From an uncultured Pelagibacteraceae bacterium (GTDB lineage: Bacteria > Pseudomonadota > Alphaproteobacteria > Pelagibacterales > Pelagibacteraceae): a stretch of 64,000 nucleotides of DNA. The notes below the pieces were generated by a model that saw only the letters and a program-made list of their open reading frames with translations, was not told the origin of the DNA and ran no database searches. Below are positions 22,105 through 58,536 of this stretch, piece by piece. The stretch covers positions 66,517-130,516 of the forward strand of contig CACAUA010000001.1 in NCBI GenBank assembly GCA_902535625.1. The letters run 5' to 3'. The translations under genes were made by a program, and so were the position numbers. Within the stretch, counting starts at the first letter, position 1; each line of letters opens with the position of its first letter.

Positions 22105-22685
22105 TTATATTTTCCTAAATAATCTCTAATCTTTTTCACAGGTAAACCCATTACTGTATTCTCATCTCCATCAATTTTTGTAAACAATTTTCTACCCTCT
22201 CCTTCTATTTGATAAACATTATATGCATATAAAGTTTCATCAGGTATTTTGTCTAAGTAAGAAATCAATTCTTCATTTGAGAAATTTTTCATAAATAAAT
22301 TAGCTTTATCAGAATGATTCCAGATCATAGAGCCATTTTTAGAGATACAAACTGAACTTATCAAAGAATGTTTTTTACCATTTAATTTATTTAGAATATT
22401 TAAAGCTTCACCTCGATTTTCTGGTTTTGAAATTAATTGACCATTTAAATCAATCACGCTATCAGCGCCAAGAACTAAGGAGTTATGCATATGTTGACTC
22501 ACTTTGTTAGCTTTTAATTCTGCTAGATTTTTTGATATTATTTCAGGTGTGGCGCCATCTTTCAGTAAACTTGCCTTTATAGGTTCCTCATCAACATTTG
22601 ATGGTTTTACAAAACAATCTATATTATTTTCCTTTAAGATTTTCTCCCTAATTTTACTTTTTGAAGCCAATATAATTTTAATCAT
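22101..22685 (-). CDS. maf: Maf-like nucleoside triphosphate pyrophosphatase
   Basis: Maf proteins hydrolyse modified or non-canonical pyrimidine NTPs and can arrest division when overproduced. The frame opens at 22703, but the ATG at 22685 gives the canonical start 'MIKIILASKSKIREKIL' and an 8-base overlap with the preceding ppsR stop. It has about 194 residues. The signature 'LGADSVIDLNGQLISKPENRGEALNILNKLNGKKHSLISSVCI' (two parts: A-D-S/T and K-P-x-x-x-x-E-A-x-x-x-L-x-x-L-x-G-x-x-H) is complete. 'YQIEGEGRKLF' near the C-terminus is typical. Confidence 0.94.
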   Translation of the reverse strand: MIKIILASKSKIREKILKENNIDCFVKPSNVDEEPIKASLLKDGATPEIISKNLAELKANKVSQHMHNSLVLGADSVIDLNGQLISKPENRGEALNILNKLNGKKHSLISSVCISKNGSMIWNHSDKANLFMKNFSNEELISYLDKIPDETLYAYNVYQIEGEGRKLFTKIDGDENTVMGLPVKKIRDYLGKYK

Positions 22686-23499
22686 TTTTGTTTTGAATTT
22701 CATATATTTTTATTATTGATGCCGCAGTTTCTTCAACTGATTTTCTCGTAACATCAATTATTGGCCATTTATTTTTTTTAAATATTTTTTTTGATTGATC
22801 TACTTCCTCTATAATTTTTTCTAAATTTGTATAATCAGATGCTTCATTTTCTTTTAGTGAACTTAATCTATTTCGTCTTATATCATGCAGTCTTTCAGCC
22901 TCAGTTGTTAAACCAATAATACATAATGATTTAGATTTTATTAAATCTGGTGGTATGCTCATTTCATTTACTAAAGGAATATTAGATGTTTTTAAACCTT
23001 TGTTGGCAAGATAAATAGAAGTTGGTGTCTTACTTGTACGACTAACACCAATTAAAATAATATCTGACTCTAAAATATTTTCAGTATTATTTCCATCATC
23101 ATGGTTCATCGTAAATTGTATTGCTTCAATTCTTTTATAATAGTCTTCATCTAAAACATGTTGAGCGCTTGGTTGATGAGTAGCTTTTTGGTTCAAAATT
23201 TTTGAAAAGTTTAAAATAAGATCTCCGAGCACACCAAAACAAGGAATTTTTTTTTTGTTTGCTTCTTCAGCAAGAAATTTCGCTAACTTGCTGTTGACTA
23301 CAGTATACAAAATTATTGGACTATCTTGTTTTTTTGCATTATTTAAAATTGTCAAAATTTGGTTTTCTGTTCTGGTAAATGAAAATTGACTTAAATCATA
23401 ATCAAAATTATTAAATTGTGCTTTAAGAGCCATAAAAATTCTATCAAGCGTTTCTCCTGTCGAATCTGATATTAAATAAACCTGGTGTGTATTTTTCAT
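22678..23499 (-). CDS. ppsR: Pyruvate,phosphate dikinase / PEP synthase regulatory protein (kinase-pyrophosphorylase)
   Basis: This DUF299-family bifunctional regulator uses ADP to phosphorylate, and phosphate to dephosphorylate, a threonine on PPDK or PEP synthase, switching gluconeogenic flux. The ORF opens at 23553, but ATG 23499 gives the family start 'HQVYLISDSTGETLDRIF'. The P-loop-like nucleotide site is 'ILIGVSRTSKTPTSIYLA' near residue 150. The C-terminal 'NKWPIIDVTRKSVEETAASI' is also standard. The product is about 273 residues. It is the first gene left of the putative origin. Confidence 0.93.
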   Translation of the reverse strand: MKNTHQVYLISDSTGETLDRIFMALKAQFNNFDYDLSQFSFTRTENQILTILNNAKKQDSPIILYTVVNSKLAKFLAEEANKKKIPCFGVLGDLILNFSKILNQKATHQPSAQHVLDEDYYKRIEAIQFTMNHDDGNNTENILESDIILIGVSRTSKTPTSIYLANKGLKTSNIPLVNEMSIPPDLIKSKSLCIIGLTTEAERLHDIRRNRLSSLKENEASDYTNLEKIIEEVDQSKKIFKKNKWPIIDVTRKSVEETAASIIKIYEIQNKND

Positions 23500-23779
23500 G
23501 TATAACTTGTAAGTAAACTGTCCATAAAATAAAAAGTAATTTAAATTAAGCAATTAAGTCAAATTAATAATATTTGTTATCATTTAATTAACATTTATAT
23601 AAATGTGAATAACTTATTAACAATTCTTAAATCTAGTAAAATCATTAAATAGGCCAATAATTAAAGCAATTTATCAGAGACAATTTGTATAAATGGTTAA
23701 TAAAATGTTGAAATTGAGTAATTTACGTAATCTACAATTCATACTAATAATAAATCTAAATATATATATCTTATTATAA
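23500..23779. other. Putative chromosomal replication origin region (oriC)
   Basis: This is the largest gene-free gap in the window, very AT-rich, between ppsR (minus) and hemE (plus). At 23604-23612 TGTGAATAA differs from the DnaA box TGTGGATAA by one base. One base later TTATTAACA (23614-23622) lies in inverted orientation (two mismatches), so the pair forms an imperfect palindrome. TGTCCATAA at 23519-23527 is a weaker candidate. A TATATATAT-rich tract at 23758-23779 could unwind. The hemE neighbour, opposite gene directions on both sides and parAB-parS about 7-9 kb away all fit known alphaproteobacterial origins. No replication data are available. Confidence 0.6.
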
Positions 23780-24781
23780 ATGACACCAATTAAAGAATGT
23801 TTAATAAATAAAAATACTAATATCACCCCTATATGGTTGATGAGACAGGCGGGGAGATACTTGCCAGAGTTTAGAGAAATTAGGAAAGTTAATACAAACT
23901 TTATAGATTTATGTCTGAACCCTATTCTTTCTGAAAAAATAACACTTCAACCAATCAAAAGATTTGATTTTGATGCTGCAATAATATTTTCAGATATCTT
24001 AATGATACCTTTTGGTCTTGGCCAAAATGTCGAGTTCAAAAAGAGTTTTGGGCCTAATTTAGGAAAAATAGACCTAGATAGTTTGTTTATTACGGATGAA
24101 CAAAAATTTACAAAAAAATTATCTCCAATTTACGAGCTCTTAAAAAATTTAAGCAGAAATGAAAAGCTAAAAAATAAAGATTTAATTGGTTTTGTTGGAG
24201 CTCCTTGGACTTTATTAGTATATATGATTAACCAAGTTTCACCAAAAAACGGTCTATCTTCAAATTTTTTTACTGATAAAAAATTAATAATTAACTTATT
24301 AAAAATTCTTGATAAATTTATTAAGATTCACATAAAAAATCAGGTCAACTCTGGAGCAACGATTATACAGATATTTGATAGTTGGGCAGGTTTAATAAAA
24401 AGTGATCTTGAGCAATATTTATATCGTCCTACATTGTCATTAGTTGAATATACAAAAAGTCTTGGTGTCCCAGTGATTTGCTTCCCAAGAGGCATATCTG
24501 ATTACAATAAATTTTGTCAGATTATTAGGCCAAGTATGATAAACATAGACTATAATGTAAATCCTAAAACTCTAATTGATAAATTTGATATTCCAATACA
24601 AGGTGGGTTAGATCCAAAAGTATTACTGACAGACAAAGAAAACCTAAAAAATGAAGTAACAAAATATTTAGAGTTGTTTAAGGATCATCCGTATGTATTT
24701 AATTTAGGCCACGGAATCCTTCCAGAAACACAAATTGAATCAGTTGAAGAATTGGTAAAAATAGTTAGGAATTTTAAATAA
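23780..24781 (+). CDS. hemE: Uroporphyrinogen decarboxylase
   Basis: HemE removes four carboxyl groups from uroporphyrinogen III to give coproporphyrinogen III in heme synthesis. The 333-residue protein has 'PIWLMRQAGRYLPEFR' at about 17-32 (the R-Q-A-G-R signature), 'AAIIFSDILMIPFGLG' with the catalytic Asp near residue 75, 'GFVGAPWTLLVYMI' and 'GGLDPKVLL', ending 'FNLGHGILPETQIE'. It begins the plus-strand run hemE-hemH-hemJ and overlaps hemH by one base. Confidence 0.97.
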   Translation: MTPIKECLINKNTNITPIWLMRQAGRYLPEFREIRKVNTNFIDLCLNPILSEKITLQPIKRFDFDAAIIFSDILMIPFGLGQNVEFKKSFGPNLGKIDLDSLFITDEQKFTKKLSPIYELLKNLSRNEKLKNKDLIGFVGAPWTLLVYMINQVSPKNGLSSNFFTDKKLIINLLKILDKFIKIHIKNQVNSGATIIQIFDSWAGLIKSDLEQYLYRPTLSLVEYTKSLGVPVICFPRGISDYNKFCQIIRPSMINIDYNVNPKTLIDKFDIPIQGGLDPKVLLTDKENLKNEVTKYLELFKDHPYVFNLGHGILPETQIESVEELVKIVRNFK

Positions 24782-28977: not shown

Positions 28978-30855
28978 ATGCCTATGAAAAATGAATTATC
29001 ATTTGATGTTGTGGTAATAGGAGGTGGGCATGCAGGTTGCGAAGCAGCAGCAGCAGCAGCTAGATTAGGAGTTAACACTGCCTTATTTACACACAAATTT
29101 GGTACCATAGGAGAGATGTCTTGTAACCCAGCCATTGGAGGTTTGGGTAAAGGCCATTTGGTTAGAGAGATAGACGCGCTAGATGGTGTCATGGGTGTGG
29201 TGGCTGATAAGTCGGGTATACAATTTAGATTACTAAATAGAAGTAGAGGACCAGCTGTTAGAGGACCTAGAACACAAAGTGACAGGGCATTATATAAAAA
29301 ATTTATGCAGGAAAAACTTGTAAACTACTGTAATTTAAGCATTTATTCAGACCCTGTAATTAGGTTTAATTTTAAAAATAATGATATAATTGGTTTTATA
29401 ACGCAATCAGGTAAAGAGGTTACGTCATCCAAGATAATTTTAACAACGGGAACTTTTTTAAATGGTTTGATACATATTGGTGAAAAGAAAACTCCCGCGG
29501 GAAGGTTTAATGAGAAACCCTCAACTGGTTTGAGTGAGCAATTAGAAAAATATAATTTTAAAATAGGAAGATTAAAAACTGGAACTCCTCCAAGATTGGA
29601 TTCTCGTACAATAAATTTTGAAAACCTAGAAGAGCAGCACGCAGATGATGACCCATACTTCTTTTCATTTTTAACCAAAAAAAATTTTAATAAGCAAATT
29701 TCATGTCGAATGACTTATACGAATAATGATGTTCATAAAATTATATCAAAAAATATAAAACGGAGCGCCATGTATTCTGGAAACATAAAAGGAGTTGGTC
29801 CTAGATATTGTCCATCTATAGAAGATAAGATAAAAAAATTCGCTGACAAACAAAGGCACCAAATTTTTTTAGAGCCTGAAGGTTTAAATGATCATACAAT
29901 TTATCCAAATGGAATTTCAACATCTCTACCAGCTGATGTACAACAAGAAATATGTAGTAAAATCAATGGTTTAGAGAATGTTAAAATAATTAGACCTGGA
30001 TATGCTATAGAGTATGATTTTGTTGATCCTAGAGAACTTTTTCTAACACTAGAAACAAAAAAAATTAAAAATCTATACCTAGCTGGTCAAATTAATGGAA
30101 CCACTGGTTACGAGGAGGCAGCAGCACAGGGATTAATAGCTGGTATAAATGCTGCTCTTGCGTTTCAGGGTAAAGAACCATTTATTTTGGATAGGTCAGA
30201 GGCATATATAGGAGTAATGATAGATGATCTTGTAACCAAGGGTGTTGCTGAGCCTTACAGAATGTTCACATCGAGAGCTGAATATAGACTATCACTAAGA
30301 TCAGATAATGCTGACGTGAGATTAACAAAAAAAGGTATAGATATAGGAATTGTCAGCCAAGAAAGAGAAAAGATGTATAAAGAGAAATACACTCAGCTAT
30401 CTAGAATTCAGCTTAAAATGGATAAATTGAAGATTACTCCTTCAAAAGCACAGAAATTTGGTGTTAATATTGCAAAGGATGGTGTTAATAGATCTGCAAA
30501 CCAGATATTAGGACAAAAATCAGTAAATATGCTTAAAATCAGAGAAATTTGGCCTGAAATTAAGTATGTTTCACGTGAAATAGATGAGCAATTAGAAATT
30601 AACTCTCATTATAAAGGATATTTAAAAAAGCAAAAAGCAGATATACTAGCATTTAAAAGAGATGAAAATTTAATAATTCCAAAAAACCTTAATTATGACA
30701 ATTTTTCAGGACTGTCTAATGAAGTAAAGTCAAAATTTAAAAAAATAAGACCAAAAACAATGGGTCAGGCGTTAAGAATTGATGGTATCACACCTGCTGC
30801 AGTATATATTTTGTTGTCTCATCTTAAAAGAAAGTCTATTAAGCATATAGCTTGA
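28978..30855 (+). CDS. mnmG: tRNA uridine 5-carboxymethylaminomethyl modification enzyme MnmG
   Basis: MnmG (GidA) is the FAD/NADH-dependent partner of MnmE. The 625-residue protein opens with '[21 protein letters not shown]' (FAD fold), then '[24 protein letters not shown]', '[11 protein letters not shown]', '[12 protein letters not shown]' with the conserved Cys, and '[23 protein letters not shown]'. The C-terminal helical domain carries '[10 protein letters not shown]', whose codons form a near-perfect parS site (30567-30582). The stop overlaps the rsmG TTG start. Confidence 0.98.
30567..30582. promoter_or_regulatory. ParB-binding parS site (one mismatch) inside mnmG
   Basis: TGTTTCACGTGAAATA matches the conserved parS palindrome TGTTTCACGTGAAACA at 15 of 16 positions. 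It encodes Val-Ser-Arg-Glu within MnmG. It lies about 330 bases before the perfect site and about 0.9 kb before parA. Confidence 0.8.
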
Positions 30856-31496
30856 TTGATTCGAACTTTATAAAATCTGATAATTTTAATATTGCAAATG
30901 TTTCACGTGAAACAATCAAAGAGCTTGACGAATATTCAAAAGCAATAATACTAAAAAATAAAAGCATAAATCTAATTAGCAACAGTACAGAAAAGTCAAT
31001 AAATATAAGACATATTGAAGATAGTGCACAAACTATTGATTTTATTGACAAAAATGATATAAAAACTTGCACAGACCTTGGATCAGGTGCTGGACTGCCT
31101 GGTATAGTTTTAGGTATTTTGATGAAACCAAAAAAACCATTATTTAAGCTAATTTTTTATGAAAAAAGTTATCACAAGAGTGTTTTCTTAAAAGAAATGG
31201 CAAAAAAATTTAATTTAAACTCTGAAATTCATCAAAAAAATATTTTTGAAGAAAGAGATTTGTGTACAGATGTAATTATTTCAAGAGCATTTAAACCTTT
31301 GCCCATAATTTTTCAGATTGCAAAGAATAATTTTAAAAATTTTAAATATATTATTTTATTTCTAGGTAAAAGCAGAAGAAAAATTTTATACGATGCCTTT
31401 GAAACATGGAAATTTGATTACGAAGAAAAAAAAAGTTTAACAAACAATGAGTCTATAATTGTCAAAATTTCTAATTTGAGAAAAAAAAATGGATAA
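30852..31496 (+). CDS. rsmG: 16S rRNA (guanine-527-N7) methyltransferase RsmG
   Basis: RsmG (GidB) methylates G527 of 16S rRNA with SAM. The 214-residue product starts at a TTG overlapping the mnmG stop; no ATG is available early enough to keep '[17 protein letters not shown]'. The SAM motif is '[18 protein letters not shown]' near residue 73-90, and 'ISRAFKPL' is the later V/I-S/T-R-A motif. The codons for Asn-Val-Ser-Arg-Glu-Thr contain the perfect parS site. The 3' end overlaps parA by 8 bases. Confidence 0.95.
30899..30914. promoter_or_regulatory. Perfect ParB-binding parS site inside rsmG
   Basis: The 16-base palindrome TGTTTCACGTGAAACA is identical to the parS consensus conserved across bacteria. 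It lies in the 5' coding part of rsmG (codons for Val-Ser-Arg-Glu-Thr). The parA and parB genes start about 0.6 and 1.4 kb downstream, so the whole segregation system is contiguous. Confidence 0.95.
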
Positions 31497-32289
31497 AAAA
31501 ATTATATCAGTCATAAATCAAAAGGGGGGAGTAGGAAAGACAACTACAGTCATTAATCTTGCTGCTGGGTTGTCCATGAAAGGAAAGAAAATTTTAGTAA
31601 TAGATCTTGATCCTCAAGGCAATGCAACAACTGGACTTGGTTTGTCAAATACTACAAATTCAGAGACCACAATTTATAATGTGCTTAATGGAAATATGAA
31701 AATTTCTGATGTGATACAAGATACAAGTTTTCACAATCTCAATTTAATAACCTCTAATGTTGATTTATCAGGCCTTGAGGTAGAAACAGCTGGAGATAGT
31801 CGAAGAGCATTTAAATTAAAAGACGAATTAAGCTTGATTTTAAATGATTCTGGGCCATCATATGACTATATACTAATCGATTGCCCACCATCTCTAAGTT
31901 TGCTTACAATTATGGCATTGGTAGCTTCGGATGCTTTAGTGGTACCACTTCAAACAGAATTTTTTGCCTTAGAAGGTCTTACCCAACTAATGAAAACCAT
32001 TAAAAGAATAAAGTCTAAATTAAATCCTTCGCTAGAGATAAGGGGAATACTTCTTACAATGTTTGACAAGAGGAACAAGCTCTCAGGACAAGTTGAGATA
32101 GAGGCCAGAAATTATTTCAAGGAAAAAGTATACTCTACTGCCGTTCCTAGAAATGTTAGGTTATCGGAGGCGCCATCTCATGGAATACCAGTATTACTAT
32201 ATGATAAAATTTGTCCTGGTAGTAAAGCTTATTTTAAATTTACAGAAGAATTTTTAGAACAAGATAAACAAGTGGAGAGTGCAGCATGA
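31489..32289 (+). CDS. parA: Chromosome partitioning ATPase ParA
   Basis: ParA is a DNA-binding ATPase whose gradient moves ParB-parS complexes apart after replication. The 266 residues start '[26 protein letters not shown]', with the deviant Walker A K-G-G-x-G-K-T-T (about 12-19). 'ILVIDLDPQGNATTGLG' gives Walker A', 'YDYILIDCPPSLSLLT' gives Walker B, and 'VVPLQTEFFALEGL' follows. It lacks the N-terminal HTH of plasmid type Ia ParA, as expected for the chromosomal type. It overlaps rsmG by 8 bases and parB by 4. Confidence 0.98.
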   Translation: MDKKIISVINQKGGVGKTTTVINLAAGLSMKGKKILVIDLDPQGNATTGLGLSNTTNSETTIYNVLNGNMKISDVIQDTSFHNLNLITSNVDLSGLEVETAGDSRRAFKLKDELSLILNDSGPSYDYILIDCPPSLSLLTIMALVASDALVVPLQTEFFALEGLTQLMKTIKRIKSKLNPSLEIRGILLTMFDKRNKLSGQVEIEARNYFKEKVYSTAVPRNVRLSEAPSHGIPVLLYDKICPGSKAYFKFTEEFLEQDKQVESAA

Positions 32290-33137
32290 TAAATCCTTTT
32301 AAAAGTAAGAAAGGTCTTGGCAGAGGTCTCTCGTCATTAATTGGTGATAGTGAAATTAAGACCTCGAATGATCAAATTTCTATAAGTTCAATTATTCCTA
32401 ACAAAAACCAACCAAGAAAATTGTTTGAAAAAGATGCTTTAGAGGATTTAACAAATTCAATAAAAGAAAGAGGAATTATACAGCCCTTAATAGTTAGAAA
32501 ATTAGAAGATCAAGATAATAAATATGAATTGATTGCAGGTGAGAGAAGATGGCAAGCAGCTCAGTCAGCAGGTTTTAATGAGGTTCCAGTAGTGATTATA
32601 GAAGCAGACAATCTTAGATCATTGGAGTTAGCAATTATAGAAAATGTACAAAGGAAAGATTTAAATGCAATTGAAGAAGCTGAAAGTTACAATAATTTAA
32701 TTCAAAATTTTGGATATGATCAAGAACAAGTCTCAAAATTTATAGGAAAAAGCAGGTCGCATATTACAAACTCATTACGTTTGCTGACTCTACCAAACAA
32801 ATTGATTGATATGATAAGGTTAAAACAAATAAGCCAAGGACATGCAAAAATTTTAGTAGGTTTGGAAAACGCTTTACTTTTAGCAGATAAAATTATTAAA
32901 AAGAATTTATCTGTTAGACAAACAGAAAATCTTGTTAGAATTATAAAAAAAGCTCCAAAAAAGAGCTTAAATTTTAAGAGTGCAAATATAACTGCTGCTG
33001 AAAATGAATTATCTAGCAAAATAGGAATGCGAGTTTCTTTAATAAATAAGAAGGATAACTCAGGAACTTTAACATTTGAGTATAAGGCAGTTGATCAGTT
33101 AGATAGATTAATTAATACTATAAAAAATCATTATTAA
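32286..33137 (+). CDS. parB: Chromosome partitioning protein ParB (CTP-dependent parS clamp)
   Basis: ParB loads at parS and slides as a CTP-dependent clamp. The 283-residue protein has 'KKGLGRGLSSLIGD' (ParA-interacting N-terminus, about 8-21), 'IIPNKNQPRKLFEKDAL', 'SIKERGIIQPLIVRK', the CTP motifs including 'GERRWQAAQSAGF' near residue 80-92, 'ENVQRKDLNAIEEAESY', a helix-turn-helix 'YDQEQVSKFIGKSRSHITNSLRLL', and a C-terminal dimerisation domain. Its end overlaps holA by 4 bases on the other strand. Its target sites lie at 30567 and 30899. Confidence 0.98.
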   Translation: MINPFKSKKGLGRGLSSLIGDSEIKTSNDQISISSIIPNKNQPRKLFEKDALEDLTNSIKERGIIQPLIVRKLEDQDNKYELIAGERRWQAAQSAGFNEVPVVIIEADNLRSLELAIIENVQRKDLNAIEEAESYNNLIQNFGYDQEQVSKFIGKSRSHITNSLRLLTLPNKLIDMIRLKQISQGHAKILVGLENALLLADKIIKKNLSVRQTENLVRIIKKAPKKSLNFKSANITAAENELSSKIGMRVSLINKKDNSGTLTFEYKAVDQLDRLINTIKNHY

Positions 33138-40048: not shown

Positions 40049-40539
40049 AGAATTTTTATTTTAGTATTTTTTTTAATTAATTTTAATAAAATTAATAAAT
40101 CCTTTTCTTTAAGTCCTATACATCCCGCTGTACTTTTGTAATTTTTTGTTAAATGAATAAAAATTGCACTTCCTCTTCCAAGTTTGGTTTTTTTCCAGTT
40201 ATATTTTATTGGGACTAAATAATTGTATTTATGATCGGATCTAAATAAGTTTTCACTTTTTATACCTGGAATTTTTCTTATTAATTTATTATACTTAACT
40301 TTTTCACTTATATCATCACACCAACCCATATTTTTTTTTATTTCTATAACTTTTAATTTTGTTGGTGGCTTAGTTTTTCTATCTTTTCTAAAATACAAGT
40401 TTTCTAAGAAGAATGTGCCTCTTGGAGTTTTTTTATCTCCTTCAATTTTTTTATTTGAAAATCCATTTTTTCCTACACAACACTTAAACTCAAAGTCATC
40501 AAATATTAGTGTATCTTTATTTTTTACAATAATTGTCAT
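40045..40539 (-). CDS. L,D-transpeptidase (YkuD-domain) family protein
   Basis: The product is about 164 residues from the ATG at 40539; a TTG at 40548 would add three. The YkuD catalytic motif is 'FIHLTKNYKSTAGCIGL' (His ... Ser-x-x-Gly-Cys) near residue 140, with the Cys nucleophile. 'KKTPRGTFFLENLYFR' near 38 is the K-x-T-P-x-G-x-F element. Conserved Arg after the Cys (GCVR) is replaced by Ile-Gly-Leu, as in one subgroup of these proteins. No signal peptide is evident, which is odd for an enzyme acting on peptidoglycan. Confidence 0.85.
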   Translation of the reverse strand: MTIIVKNKDTLIFDDFEFKCCVGKNGFSNKKIEGDKKTPRGTFFLENLYFRKDRKTKPPTKLKVIEIKKNMGWCDDISEKVKYNKLIRKIPGIKSENLFRSDHKYNYLVPIKYNWKKTKLGRGSAIFIHLTKNYKSTAGCIGLKEKDLLILLKLIKKNTKIKIL

Positions 40540-40550
40540 ATTGTACAAGT

Positions 40551-41111
40551 ATGACTATAAACCAATTTTTAATAATTCATAAATTGCCAACATTATTTAG
40601 TATATTAAATGAACTCAAAAGTAACCTAAATTTTAAAATAGAGTATTTGGATGATGAAGAAATCACTAATATATCAAAAAAAAATGTAGTTGTTATTTCT
40701 GGTGATAAAAAAAGCAACTTACAAAACCAGGTTAAAATTGAGGAATACCCAATTAATATTCAAAAATTAATAGAAAATATAAATATTCAATTTTTAAAGA
40801 ATAAATTTAACCAACAAAATAATGTGAAAGTGGGGAAGTATCATATTAATTTAAATTCAAGAATAATGAATTTAGAAAGTAAATCTCTTCAACTTACAGA
40901 AAAAGAGGTAAAGATTATAAGCTTTCTAAATGATTCAGACTCCCCCATATCTATAAATAAATTACAATCTGAGGTTTGGGGTTATAAATCTAAATTGGAA
41001 ACCCATACCGTTGAAACCCATGTTTATAGATTAAGAAAGAAAATTGAAAAAAAGTTTAAAGATAACTCATTTATAGTTAGTTTAAAAAATGGCTACAAAA
41101 TTAAAGATTAA
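40551..41111 (+). CDS. OmpR-type winged-helix DNA-binding protein with degenerate receiver-like N-terminus
   Basis: The product is 186 residues from the ATG at 40551. The C-terminal half is a Trans_reg_C winged helix: 'LNSRIMNLESKSLQLTEKEVKIISFL', 'VWGYKSKLETHTVETHVYRLRKKI' (recognition helix H-T-V-E-T-H-V-x-R-L-R-K-K) and a wing 'FIVSLKNGYKI'. The first 90 residues look like the end of a receiver fold ('VVVISGD...', then 'YPINIQKLIENI', like K-P-F-x-x-x-E-L-L-x-R-I) but have no clear phospho-acceptor Asp. It is probably a non-canonical regulator working without a kinase. Targets unknown. It overlaps the ArfA-like ORF. Confidence 0.85.
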   Translation: MTINQFLIIHKLPTLFSILNELKSNLNFKIEYLDDEEITNISKKNVVVISGDKKSNLQNQVKIEEYPINIQKLIENINIQFLKNKFNQQNNVKVGKYHINLNSRIMNLESKSLQLTEKEVKIISFLNDSDSPISINKLQSEVWGYKSKLETHTVETHVYRLRKKIEKKFKDNSFIVSLKNGYKIKD

Positions 41112-41217
41112 GAAAAATAGATTTGCAAAAGAGTTATTTTCTCAAAAGTACAAACAAAAGATTGTAAAACCAAAAAAAGGAAAAGGAAGTTTCACTAGAA
41201 AAAATACTAAAGTCTAG
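41089..41217 (+). CDS. arfA: Small ArfA-like ribosome-rescue protein (42 aa)
   Basis: A short frame starting inside the end of the regulator gene (ATG 41089) encodes 42 residues with 17 Lys/Arg. It contains 'ELFSQKYKQKI' then 'KKGKGSFTRK', matching the core of E. coli ArfA ('LF.Q.V..KKGKGSY.RK'). ArfA recruits RF2 to ribosomes stalled on mRNAs lacking a stop codon. The basic tail beyond the motif is very short here. It overlaps the regulator by 23 bases and the convergent kinase gene by 11. The match is by eye but the motif is distinctive. Confidence 0.72.
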   Translation: MATKLKIKKNRFAKELFSQKYKQKIVKPKKGKGSFTRKNTKV

Positions 41218-42136
41218 CTCCTATTTGTTGAATAATTTTTGATGACATTTCTTTCCCTTTGTTAAGACAATCTAAAGTATCCAATCCGTTTATGAAACCG
41301 TGCAAATAACCTGAAGCAAATAAATCTCCTGCTCCTGTAAGATCTTTAATATTTAAATTTTTTTCTACATCATTTTCTACAACCTGATCTCCATTTATTG
41401 ATATAGCCCCTTTATCTCCTCGAGTAATAATGATTAACTTTTTTAAACTTTTTGCAAAATCAATTACATCTTTGAAATTTTTGGCATCAATTAACGAAAT
41501 CATTTCTTGTTCGTTTGCAAAAGTTATGTCTAATTTGTTTTTTACCAGGTTTAAAAAATGTGGTTTATGTCTATCCACACAGAATTGGTCTGATAAGGAC
41601 ATTGCAACTCTATTTGCATTATTAATCGCTTTTTCAAATGCTTTTTTAGGCTCACCTTCATCCCATAGATAGCCCTCTAGAAATATCATTTCAGATTTTC
41701 TAATAATGTCTTTATCAACATCATTTTCATTAATTTTTCCTGCAGTACCCAAGAAAGTACACATTGTTCTTTCAGAGTCTGGTGTAACTAAAATTAAACA
41801 AGTTCCAGTGGGTAATTCCTCCTTTTTTTTTGAATATAAATATTCAACATTTTCGGTTTTTAGTCCTTCTTCGTATTTTGTTCCCAAATCATCATCGCTT
41901 ACTTTTCCGATAAAACCTACTTTGTTGCCTAATTGTGATAATCCAACTATAGAGTTAGCTACTGATCCACCAGAAATAGTTTTCTCTATTTTCAGGTTCG
42001 ATAACATTGATTTAAACTCTTTTTCATCAAATATAAGTTTCATAGTTCCTTTAGATAATTTATTTTGATTAATGAAGCTTTCGTCAACTTTACAAATTAC
42101 ATCTACAATTGCATTTCCAATTCCTAGAATTTTCAT
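41207..42136 (-). CDS. PfkB-family sugar/adenosine kinase
   Basis: The ATG at 42136 gives 309 residues with the usual start 'KILGIGNAIVDVICKVDE'; the open frame runs to 42244 but would overlap nth. PfkB features are 'SGGSVANSIVGLSQLGNKVGFIGKVSDDDLG' (G-G-S-x-A-N motif) and 'KDLTGAGDLFASGYLHG' with the catalytic Asp, plus 'ITRGDKGA'. The 'GNAIVDV' start and G-S-x-A-N resemble adenosine-kinase-type members, but ribokinase-like substrates cannot be excluded. It starts 1 base after the nth stop. Confidence 0.9.
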   Translation of the reverse strand: MKILGIGNAIVDVICKVDESFINQNKLSKGTMKLIFDEKEFKSMLSNLKIEKTISGGSVANSIVGLSQLGNKVGFIGKVSDDDLGTKYEEGLKTENVEYLYSKKKEELPTGTCLILVTPDSERTMCTFLGTAGKINENDVDKDIIRKSEMIFLEGYLWDEGEPKKAFEKAINNANRVAMSLSDQFCVDRHKPHFLNLVKNKLDITFANEQEMISLIDAKNFKDVIDFAKSLKKLIIITRGDKGAISINGDQVVENDVEKNLNIKDLTGAGDLFASGYLHGFINGLDTLDCLNKGKEMSSKIIQQIGARL

Positions 42137-42137
42137 T

Positions 42138-42791
42138 TTAAGCTTTCTTTGTTTTAATTGGTCTTTTTCTTTTAGGATAACAAGAAGTACAAATTTTACA
42201 AGAAATACCGTAACACTCTCTTGCTTTGCAATATTCCCTTCCATAATAAATTATTTGAAGATGGAGTTTATTCCAATTTTTTTTTGGAAATAAACGCTTT
42301 AAATCTTCTTCAGTTTGAACAACATTTTTTCCATTAGTTAAACCCCAACGTTGAGCAAGTCTATGTATATGAGTATCTATAGGAAATGCAGGATATCCAA
42401 AACCTTGAGACATAACTACACTTGCTGTCTTATGTCCTACTCCAGGTAGTTCCTCTAACTCCTCAAAAGTTTTCGGAACTTTACCATTATATTTTTCTAC
42501 TAAAGTTTTTGAAAGATTATAAACGCTCTTTGCTTTAATTCTAAAAATACCTATACTTCTTATCAGTTTTTCAATTTTTTTTCTCCCAAGCTTAACAAAA
42601 TGCTCAGGTTTATTGTATTTAGGATAAATATTTTTTGTAACATTATTAACATTTACATCTGTACATTGAGCTGAAAGTAGTACTGATATTAAAAGTGTAA
42701 ATATATTTCTATGTTTTAATGGTATAGGTGTAGTTGGATAAGTTTTATTGAGAATCTTTAAAACTATTTTGGCTCTCTGTACTTCATTCAT
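42138..42791 (-). CDS. nth: Endonuclease III (DNA glycosylase/AP lyase)
   Basis: Nth removes oxidised pyrimidines from DNA. The 217 residues contain 'FTLLISVLLSAQCTDVNVNNVT', the helix-hairpin-helix 'LEELPGVGHKTASVVMSQGFG' with catalytic Lys near residue 122, and 'FPIDTHIHRLAQRWG' with catalytic Asp near 140. The iron-sulfur loop near the C-terminus has five Cys with spacing 1, 6, 11, 14, 17, instead of the usual 1, 8, 11, 17. The first base overlaps the dapB stop, so the two genes are coupled. Confidence 0.96.
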   Translation of the reverse strand: MNEVQRAKIVLKILNKTYPTTPIPLKHRNIFTLLISVLLSAQCTDVNVNNVTKNIYPKYNKPEHFVKLGRKKIEKLIRSIGIFRIKAKSVYNLSKTLVEKYNGKVPKTFEELEELPGVGHKTASVVMSQGFGYPAFPIDTHIHRLAQRWGLTNGKNVVQTEEDLKRLFPKKNWNKLHLQIIYYGREYCKARECYGISCKICTSCYPKRKRPIKTKKA

Positions 42792-57154: not shown

Positions 57155-58203
57155 TTTTGAACAAATTGAAAACCTGAAAATCTCCAACCCTCTTTATCTT
57201 TTAAAGAACAGTTAATTCTTCCTCTTCTTTCAGTAAATTTTTCTGCAAAATTAATATTTAGTGTGTTTTCAATTAAGATAATTTTTGTTTTTCTCCATTT
57301 TGAACCTTCATTTGAAAAGCAATTAATATTTTCTAAATTTTTTTGATCTTTAAAGAATTCAATCATCATTTTAGGTGGGTTTTCTCCATCATTCATAAAT
57401 TTGTTTTCTGGTTTAATAATTCTATACTGAAGTGGTAAATAAGAAATTACCTCTTTAAATCTTTTTATTTCTCCGTATTTTTCGTTTATTGGAAATCTTG
57501 GTAGTTCATATTTATCTTTGTTTAAATCAATAACGCCTGAATGTTGGCCAAATGCAAATTCAAAATTTTTTGAAATATAATTTTTCTGCTCTAAATTATA
57601 CTCACCAAAAGGATATGAAAAAAAAGTCGGATTATAACCTAATTTATCACTAAAAATTTTAATTGATTCCTCAATATCTTCTACAAACTTTTGAAAAGTA
57701 AATTTAGTTAAATAATCGTGTGAATGTGAATGATTACCAATGTACGCAAAGTTCTCTTTTTCTACCTCTTTGATTTGGTCCCAACTCATATATCCTCTAT
57801 TTCCAACTGCCTCAGTTGAGACGAATAAAATAAAAGGAATTTTTTCTTCTCTTAAGATTGGCCAAGCATTTTCATAAAAAGACGTAAATGCATCATCAAT
57901 AGTTAATAAAATTTTTTTTTGTTTCTTAACCTTTTTAAAATCTTTTGAAAATTCACCAGGATGATAAAAATTTAAATTATTTTCTTTTATTAAATTAATG
58001 TGTTTTTTGAATATCTCTAATCTTATATTTGTTGATGGATACTTATTTTCTTCAAATCTATGATACATAATTGCCAAAACACCTTGTTCATTTTTGAAAT
58101 ATTTTTTATTTACTACTTCAGCTTTAACGTTTAAAAAAATAATAAAAAAAATGAATACTTTAGTTATTAACGCTGCAGATGATAAAATTTTATTTTCTCT
58201 CAT
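57151..58203 (-). CDS. Polysaccharide deacetylase (NodB-domain) secreted protein
   Basis: The product is 350 residues from the ATG at 58203 (three more from an ATG at 58212). Signal peptide 'VFIFFIIFLNVKAE' ends near residue 30. The NodB domain shows 'VLAIMYHRFEE' near 45, 'KILLTIDDAFTSFYENAWPIL' (D-D motif near 95), 'GNHSHSHDYL' (metal-binding H-S/T-x-x-H near 160) and 'FSYPFGEYN'. It is probably a carbohydrate esterase family 4 enzyme acting on peptidoglycan or an exported glycan. The last about 120 residues are unrecognised. Its 5' end overlaps the divergent tsaB start by about 53 bases. Confidence 0.88.
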   Translation of the reverse strand: MRENKILSSAALITKVFIFFIIFLNVKAEVVNKKYFKNEQGVLAIMYHRFEENKYPSTNIRLEIFKKHINLIKENNLNFYHPGEFSKDFKKVKKQKKILLTIDDAFTSFYENAWPILREEKIPFILFVSTEAVGNRGYMSWDQIKEVEKENFAYIGNHSHSHDYLTKFTFQKFVEDIEESIKIFSDKLGYNPTFFSYPFGEYNLEQKNYISKNFEFAFGQHSGVIDLNKDKYELPRFPINEKYGEIKRFKEVISYLPLQYRIIKPENKFMNDGENPPKMMIEFFKDQKNLENINCFSNEGSKWRKTKIILIENTLNINFAEKFTERRGRINCSLKDKEGWRFSGFQFVQN

Positions 58204-58528
58204 AACTAACATTGAATCTTATACTACCGCTCATATAAACAGTAGGGAAAATTTTGATAAAATAATGATATTAATTTTAGATTTCCTTAAAGAACATAAT
58301 TCAAATTTAGATAAAATAAGTGAAATATTTGTTAATCAAGGTCCAGGCAAAATCTCAAGTATTAGAAATTCAATAGCAATTGCTAAAGGTATTGCTTTTG
58401 CAAAAAATATTGATTTATATGGATTTTTGAGTGAACATTTGACAGATAAAAGCTTAGATCAATTAGTAAAAATTGATAAAAAAAATTTTACAAATATTAA
58501 TTTGATTAAACCCCTTTACTCGAGTTAA
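58151..58528 (+). CDS. tsaB: TsaB-like tRNA threonylcarbamoyladenosine protein, unusually short
   Basis: The product is 125 residues from the ATG at 58151 (a frame opening at 58094 lies wholly over the deacetylase signal peptide). Family features are 'TLVINAADDKILFSLI' (ASKHA-fold beta hairpin with 'NAAD' in place of D-T-S/A), 'IFVNQGPGKISSIRNSIAIAKGIAFAKNIDLYG' (usual G-P-G-S-F-T-G-x-R-x-x-x-x-x-A-K-G-x-A) and a terminal 'IKPLYSS' like the C-terminal P-x-Y-L. E. coli TsaB has 231 residues, so a central/C-terminal stretch is missing. TsaB partners TsaD and TsaE in making t6A37. Fur and miaB follow. Confidence 0.8.
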   Translation: MNTLVINAADDKILFSLITNIESYTTAHINSRENFDKIMILILDFLKEHNSNLDKISEIFVNQGPGKISSIRNSIAIAKGIAFAKNIDLYGFLSEHLTDKSLDQLVKIDKKNFTNINLIKPLYSS

Positions 58529-58536
58529 AATATAAT

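Follow-up and report, generated by a model that had tools for sequence, protein, structure and literature searches.

Described origins and the SAR11 locus

The chromosomal origins of Caulobacter crescentus (Cori) and Rickettsia prowazekii are described as intergenic, AT-rich regions with DnaA boxes of graded strength and with hemE and COG1806 as the flanking genes (PMC1914354, PMC10797057), while CtrA sites are reported as absent from some of the hemE/COG1806 origins (PMC1914354). For the opening of the DNA, the closest described counterpart is the basal unwinding system of Bacillus subtilis, whose pattern is given as a DnaA-box, a 0–16 spacer and at least three 3'-NAN-5' trios (PMC8287927). 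The kind of origin discussed below is, in other words, already known. The gap between ppsR and hemE in the SAR11 genome analyzed here shares the flanking genes, the intergenic position, the AT-richness and the graded boxes with Cori and the R. prowazekii origin and, on sequence comparison, is very probably the chromosomal origin (predicted oriC). A likely origin had been placed here by the first-pass annotation, and this is supported by synteny, box enrichment, a switch of strand bias in relatives, the proximity of parS and a box layout surviving the loss of hemE. With good confidence, the gap can be regarded as an origin retained from the alphaproteobacterial hemE/COG1806 type and opened by DnaA through weak boxes and a period-3 array.

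SAR11 bacteria rank among the most numerous cells of the ocean, and a known replication start would make their growth readable from sequencing depth and their cell-cycle control testable. The literature searched, mostly outside subscription journals and with predicted-origin databases beyond its scope, yielded no paper on the mapping of a SAR11 origin, and neither the element map nor the hemE-less case presented below was found in it.

The window, i.e., the whole stretch of 64,000 nt analyzed, corresponds to positions 66517–130516 of a 204-kb contig (C1) from a draft genome (G000) of 978 kb in 33 contigs, with a completeness of 75.4. The gap occupies 280 bp (23500–23779) between the start of ppsR at 23499 on the minus strand and the start of hemE at 23780 on the plus strand. 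The first of these genes (22678–23499) was identified as COG1806/DUF299; from a passage in a paper and general knowledge, we take COG1806, DUF299 and ppsR to be the same. The second (23780–24781) matched the HemE profile with 292.4 bits, which is under the curated cut-off of 302.95. The gap is, thus, bordered by both flanking genes of the alphaproteobacterial hemE/COG1806 origin, and with a GC content of 0.175 vs 0.285 in the whole window its AT content is above that of the surroundings, as in this class of origins. The gene order around it is dnaQ, coaE, SDR, aroE, maf-like, ppsR, hemE, hemH, rho and a ParA-type ATPase, and the genes for UPF0093, MnmE, GidA, GidB and ParB were also identified in the window. 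An Rfam scan of the window found tRNA only.

The gap had been called the biggest intergenic region of the window, and this stands as far as checked, since the two longer candidates hold reading frames. The stretches 42245–42790 and 58213–58536 were rejected as longer ORF-free regions because of the frames 42138–42791 (minus) and 58094–58528 (plus), respectively. The former frame, endonuclease III-like by eye, overlaps, at 42138–42244, the N-terminal part of a PfkB-family frame (41207–42244), whose true start probably lies further inside.

A search for HemE in 147 genomes of the family (own included) gave a match in 122, and in the best 30 of these 122, which were taken as loci, ppsR was always located divergently upstream of hemE (30/30). 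It was also present at 17 of 20 further hand-picked places, the three exceptions all belonging to one genus, g9. Within the same class, 57 genomes (own included) were surveyed, with ppsR found in 37 (own included); 29 of the other 36 could be read as loci, of which 27 had hemE divergent from ppsR within 1.5 kb and two did not.

DnaA boxes in the gap

With 40 further Pelagibacteraceae (SAR11) loci found by HemE, the set of 30 was extended to 70. Two of these (L083 and L084) begin inside hemE and were dropped, and the resulting 68 gaps comprised 66 distinct ones, own included, with a length of 254–291 bp. DnaA-box motifs were enriched in this set: TTATNMACA occurred 182 times vs 11.0 (sd 2.8) in dinucleotide shuffles, the canonical TTATNCACA 36 times vs 2.0 and TTATNAACA 146 times vs 8.9, while five scrambled control motifs gave 0–16 matches vs about 10–12 in the shuffles. 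Across the relatives the gaps contained several boxes, more than other intergenic DNA, and in three out of four single-contig genomes the gap ranked first among the box clusters of the sequence sampled, G043 being the exception. The own gap has two exact matches, in which it is tied with six other places on the contig, plus degenerate positions. Among the TTATNNACA matches the base at position 6 was A in 146, C in 36, T in 18 and G in 7 cases, which would fit DnaA boxes that have decayed under AT pressure; the recognition helix of DnaA, as aligned, is unchanged (RDHTTV, as in E. coli 1J1V). Unlike in Caulobacter Cori, the SAR11 boxes have apparently drifted to TTATNAACA, and the region measures 280 bp vs over 400 bp.

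Lying between divergent genes, the gap must contain promoters, and its conserved block ends at the hemE start codon with AT-rich sequence in which a -10 element could be included. The conserved elements might, then, be a divergent ppsR/hemE promoter with an operator, bound by a regulator favoring TTATNAACA. This reading is very unlikely considering the density of TTATNHACA, which reached 10.8 per kb in the gaps vs 0.22–0.59 per kb in the intergenic DNA sampled in three genomes, and the occurrence of exact TTATCCACA on one strand in 11 of the 27 other alphaproteobacterial gaps; further evidence against it comes from the genus g9 (see below). The reverse box near ppsR was likewise recognizable in other alphaproteobacteria, with a mean of 2.15 mismatches vs 3.76 in shuffled sequences. 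Thirteen of the 27 gaps had no box by the patterns used, which counts against the origin reading.

The first-pass annotation named a pair of boxes, a DnaA-box-like TGTGAATAA, one base off TTATCCACA, and an inverted partner TTATTAACA one base from it. Both are present, the first at 23604–23612 on the minus strand, where it reads TTATTCACA (that is, TGTGAATAA on the other strand) and matches TTATNCACA exactly, and the second at 23614–23622 on the plus strand. The window contains 21 copies of TTATNHACA vs 21.3 in shuffles, and the gap is one of seven 290-bp segments of the 204-kb contig with two copies each. The pair taken alone is, therefore, weak evidence, and the case for an origin rests on comparison with relatives. 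Strict copies of the inverted pair were found in 19 of the 66 gaps, all from near relatives of this genome, and copies with at most two of the 14 fixed positions wrong in 50 of the 66 (a count given without a computed chance level). The expected conservation of the pair consequently fails beyond near relatives, while the alignment of the gap across SAR11 genomes did reveal other, conserved boxes; within the gap, conservation is higher elsewhere than at the named pair. A 31-nt imperfect inverted repeat (74%) at 23568–23629 spans two box positions.

A weighted profile of the 66 sequences (effective number 28) was used as a conservation map and revealed about nine conserved box positions, several of them weak in this genome. 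With so many positions, the earlier impression of few boxes is not borne out, and the idea of a reduced origin derived from it is not supported. Position 1, beside ppsR (23508–23516, minus), is TGTAAGTAA in this genome and reads TGTTTATAA or TGTTAATAA in 35 of the 66 gaps. Position 2 (23585–23593, plus) is TAATTAACA, a sequence shared by 35 of the 66 gaps and replaced by TTATTAACA in 11. Three reverse box-like positions with a spacing of about 11 bp (23684–23692, 23695–23703 and 23706–23714, minus) are weak here, and in a number of relatives TGTTNATAA is located at -94, -83 and/or -72 from hemE. The weakness of the boxes in the own genome (two mismatches in box 8, boxes 1 and 2 off consensus) counts against the origin reading.

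Putative unwinding-type module beside hemE

The most conserved stretch of the gap (23719–23777) consists of tandem boxes, a 4-nt spacer, a period-3 [A/C]TA array and an AT-rich tract and, judged by its sequence, is a module of the basal-unwinding type directed at hemE. The first, weak tandem box TAATTTACG (23719–23727, plus) has C at 23726 in 65 of the 66 rows, with a gap in the remaining one. It is followed directly by the box next to the putative unwinding site, TAATCTACA (23728–23736, plus), with two mismatches to TTATCCACA and C at 23735 in 63 of the 66 rows. TTATNHACA is found at this box in 47 of the 66 gaps, the sequences among the rows including TTATCAACA (16), TTATTAACA (9), TTATCTACA (9) and TTATTCACA (9). 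After the spacer ATTC, i.e., 4 nt past the box, the DnaA-trio-like array ATA CTA ATA ATA begins (23741–23752, plus; 3'-TAT GAT TAT TAT-5' on the bottom strand), whose A columns are identical in all 66 rows at 23743, 23746 and 23749 and in 65 of them at 23752. The AT-rich tract beyond (23753–23779) extends up to the hemE start codon and is a candidate DNA unwinding element; the TATATA tract pointed out earlier is located in it at about 23760–23769.

Runs of at least four NTA units were present in 52 of the 66 gaps; where a run has three or more units (57 cases), it begins 4 nt past the box in 54. In 23 representatives under 75% identity the mean NTA run was 3.52 vs 2.07 in shuffles, none of 1000 shuffles reaching the observed value. 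The NTA register is indistinguishable from TAN (the same array), and the control register NAA was also above its shuffles (2.39 vs 1.40), which counts against the origin reading. The published box-spacer-trio pattern (at most two mismatches, spacer 0–16, at least three NAN) is permissive; applied to the same 23 representatives, it scored 9.83 in the hemE direction, 4.74 on the opposite strand and 1.82 in shuffles, with a match in 22 representatives, at most 75 bp from hemE in 19. By this formal search the own gap has a box with two mismatches, a spacer of 1 and five units, and counted by NTA only a spacer of 4 and four units.

The module resembles the B. subtilis system of DnaA-boxes 6/7 and DnaA-trios in its tandem co-oriented boxes, the short spacer, the period-3 array read on one strand and the AT-rich tract beyond, as far as that system is described in PMC8287927. 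It differs in the weakness of both boxes, in the distance of dnaA (about 62 kb from the gap in SAR11) and in the trio units, which start with G or T (C or A on the top strand) and not with the preferred G or A, a point counted against the origin reading. Some of the trio-contact residues differ as well: in our reading of the alignment, Asn187, described as reading the central adenine of the trio in B. subtilis DnaA, is replaced by Tyr, Ile190 by Val and Arg202 by Lys, while Glu183, Ile193, Asn196 and Glu228 are kept.

The unusual first base and the Tyr at the Asn187 position, together with arrays shortened in five of the seven g9 loci, would fit an origin that opens without trios, the period-3 array being a by-product of an AT-rich promoter or melting sequence. 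Such an explanation appears rather unlikely in view of the A columns kept in 65–66 of the 66 rows, the constant 4-nt spacing, the strand specificity and the shuffling result. It also has to account for the strand-specific C[TCA]A period-3 runs in the 27 other alphaproteobacterial gaps, although this pattern was chosen after inspection (2.96 in the hemE direction, 1.37 on the opposite strand and 1.64 in shuffles). The strict unwinding search in the same 27 gaps gave 1.96, 1.63 on the opposite strand and 0.67 in shuffles, i.e., a weak and hardly strand-specific signal.

For an origin opened by DnaA through weak boxes and the array, we infer the binding of DnaA, the opening and the helicase loading as follows. 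DnaA would bind to the weak, AT-drifted boxes scattered over the gap and, starting from the tandem boxes at 23719–23736, spread along the bottom strand where it carries the [A/C]TA array (23741–23752); the AT-rich tract at 23753–23777 would then be opened, and the helicase would be loaded there.

Genus g9 without hemE

A ppsR match was found in seven of the eight g9 genomes (none in G047), and in all seven loci rho faces ppsR in the place of hemE, encoding a Rho protein 80–82% identical to the own one. The g9 gaps contained exact TGTTNATAA at a distance of 5 bp from ppsR in five of the seven loci and TGTTTATAA at about +173 from ppsR in six, and the tandem-box block was alignable in all seven. 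The box layout, as far as the alignment can tell, largely persists in the 7/7 g9 loci without hemE, and the genus is a natural experiment in which the layout of a predicted origin largely outlasts the loss of the adjoining hemE. Since rho takes the place of hemE while the boxes keep roughly their spacing to ppsR, a hemE promoter/operator does not explain them. In the NTA array, at least four units (five and four) were present in two of the seven loci, three units in three and two units in two. The shortening in five loci argues against a strict need for the array there, or else g9 uses other units.

Beside ppsR in the g9 loci (L221–L227), hemE and the genes between hemE and rho are missing. 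The HemE matches in the eight g9 genomes had 30–32% identity in six and 34% in G066, with none in one, and box-like and CTACTACAACTATTA sequence is present upstream of the HemE place in G066. Heme synthesis in this genus may be rearranged or lost.

Nucleotide skew, dnaA and parS

The best antipodal GC-skew split was determined in five sampled single-contig genomes, using block shuffles and bootstrap; in each of the five, none of 300 block shuffles reached the best score. A skew minimum at the gap had been anticipated, and the outcome was mixed. The best split coincided with the gap in two genomes (G043, G005) and was 5 kb away in G003; in G078 it was displaced by 53 kb, and its bootstrap range (-84 to -23 kb) excludes the gap, which counts against it. 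For the hemE-less G009 the antipodal best lay at +20 kb and its range spanned -86 to +95 kb. GC3 skew in G043, taken as a mean over genes on the plus and the minus strand, did not switch in the expected direction, which counts against the origin reading, and the measured "skew" is, therefore, gene orientation. The own contig had a weak switch only, with a mean skew of -0.010 to the left and +0.035 to the right of the gap and a plus-strand share of coding of 0.41 and 0.62, respectively.

In many bacteria oriC adjoins dnaA, which is located about 62 kb from the gap in the own genus and 70–71 kb away, on the opposite side, in G005 and G009. The origin might, accordingly, be at dnaA, in which case the gap would be no more than a remnant or a site that titrates DnaA. 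The antipodal score in G009 was barely lower at dnaA than at the gap (103 vs 107), and with the terminus left free its best origin, at -71 kb, coincided with dnaA, which counts against the gap. Nevertheless, an origin at dnaA is highly improbable: the gap had a higher antipodal score than dnaA in G043 (197 vs 169), G003 (172 vs 122), G078 (167 vs 129) and G005 (234 vs 190), the side of the gap on which dnaA lies changes between genera, and parS is closer to the gap.

The parS site was located 7–19 kb from hemE in each of the nine single-contig genomes in which ppsR adjoins hemE: 7.1–9.6 kb away in the seven genomes of the own genus (in G026 as a site with one mismatch), 17.0 kb away in G005 and 18.8 kb away in G040. 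Where hemE is missing, in G009 and G022, its distance from ppsR was about 19 kb. One-mismatch parS matches also occurred elsewhere in G035, G017 and G000, and a reversed control motif had matches in G026, G035 and G063. In the window, an exact parS, TGTTTCACGTGAAACA, was found at 30899–30914 inside the rsmG (gidB) coding sequence and a second, parS-like site with one mismatch at 30567–30582 inside mnmG (gidA). The parA-type ATPase gene and parB are located at 31489–33137 (plus).

CtrA, IHF and CcrM inputs

For the motif counts, palindromic sites were counted once. Strict CtrA sites numbered 37, in 24 of the 66 gaps, vs 18.6 (sd 4.1) in shuffles, and loose sites 946 vs 592, in very AT-rich DNA; the own gap contained twelve loose and no strict sites. 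The IHF consensus WATCAANNNNTTR was neither enriched nor depleted (8 in the 66 gaps vs 5.6), and the looser WATCAN5WTR gave 28 vs 23.2, including one at 23578 in the own gap. Unlike Caulobacter Cori, the own gap is without strict TTAA-N7-TTAA and without WATCAANNNNTTR, and the CtrA model applied gave no own protein over its cut-off. This model (NF045991) is narrow, only one of 14 controls passing it, and none of 12 genomes exceeded its cut-off (best 148 vs 350 bits). PF00216 (HU/IHF) had three matches in each of the same number of genomes (12/12). GANTC, the CcrM site, was depleted (2 in the 66 gaps vs 12.7, sd 3.1, in shuffles); a CcrM homologue has been reported for SAR11 (PMC3973325).

A tentative and on balance doubtful extension is that SAR11 bacteria have a DnaA-only ancestral alphaproteobacterial origin of weak, AT-drifted boxes and a strand-specific trio array, in which the CtrA, IHF and CcrM (GANTC) inputs to the origin would have been lost, leaving DnaA as the sole factor that sets initiation. 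Such a module would predate SAR11, in line with the period-3 C[TCA]A arrays adjoining hemE in other orders, and would outlive hemE.

The window also encodes, at 40533–41111, a 192-aa protein with an OmpR-type C-terminal DNA-binding domain, in which no receiver domain was found. It matched the CtrA model weakly, and similar matches are located about 18–20 kb from hemE in several relatives.
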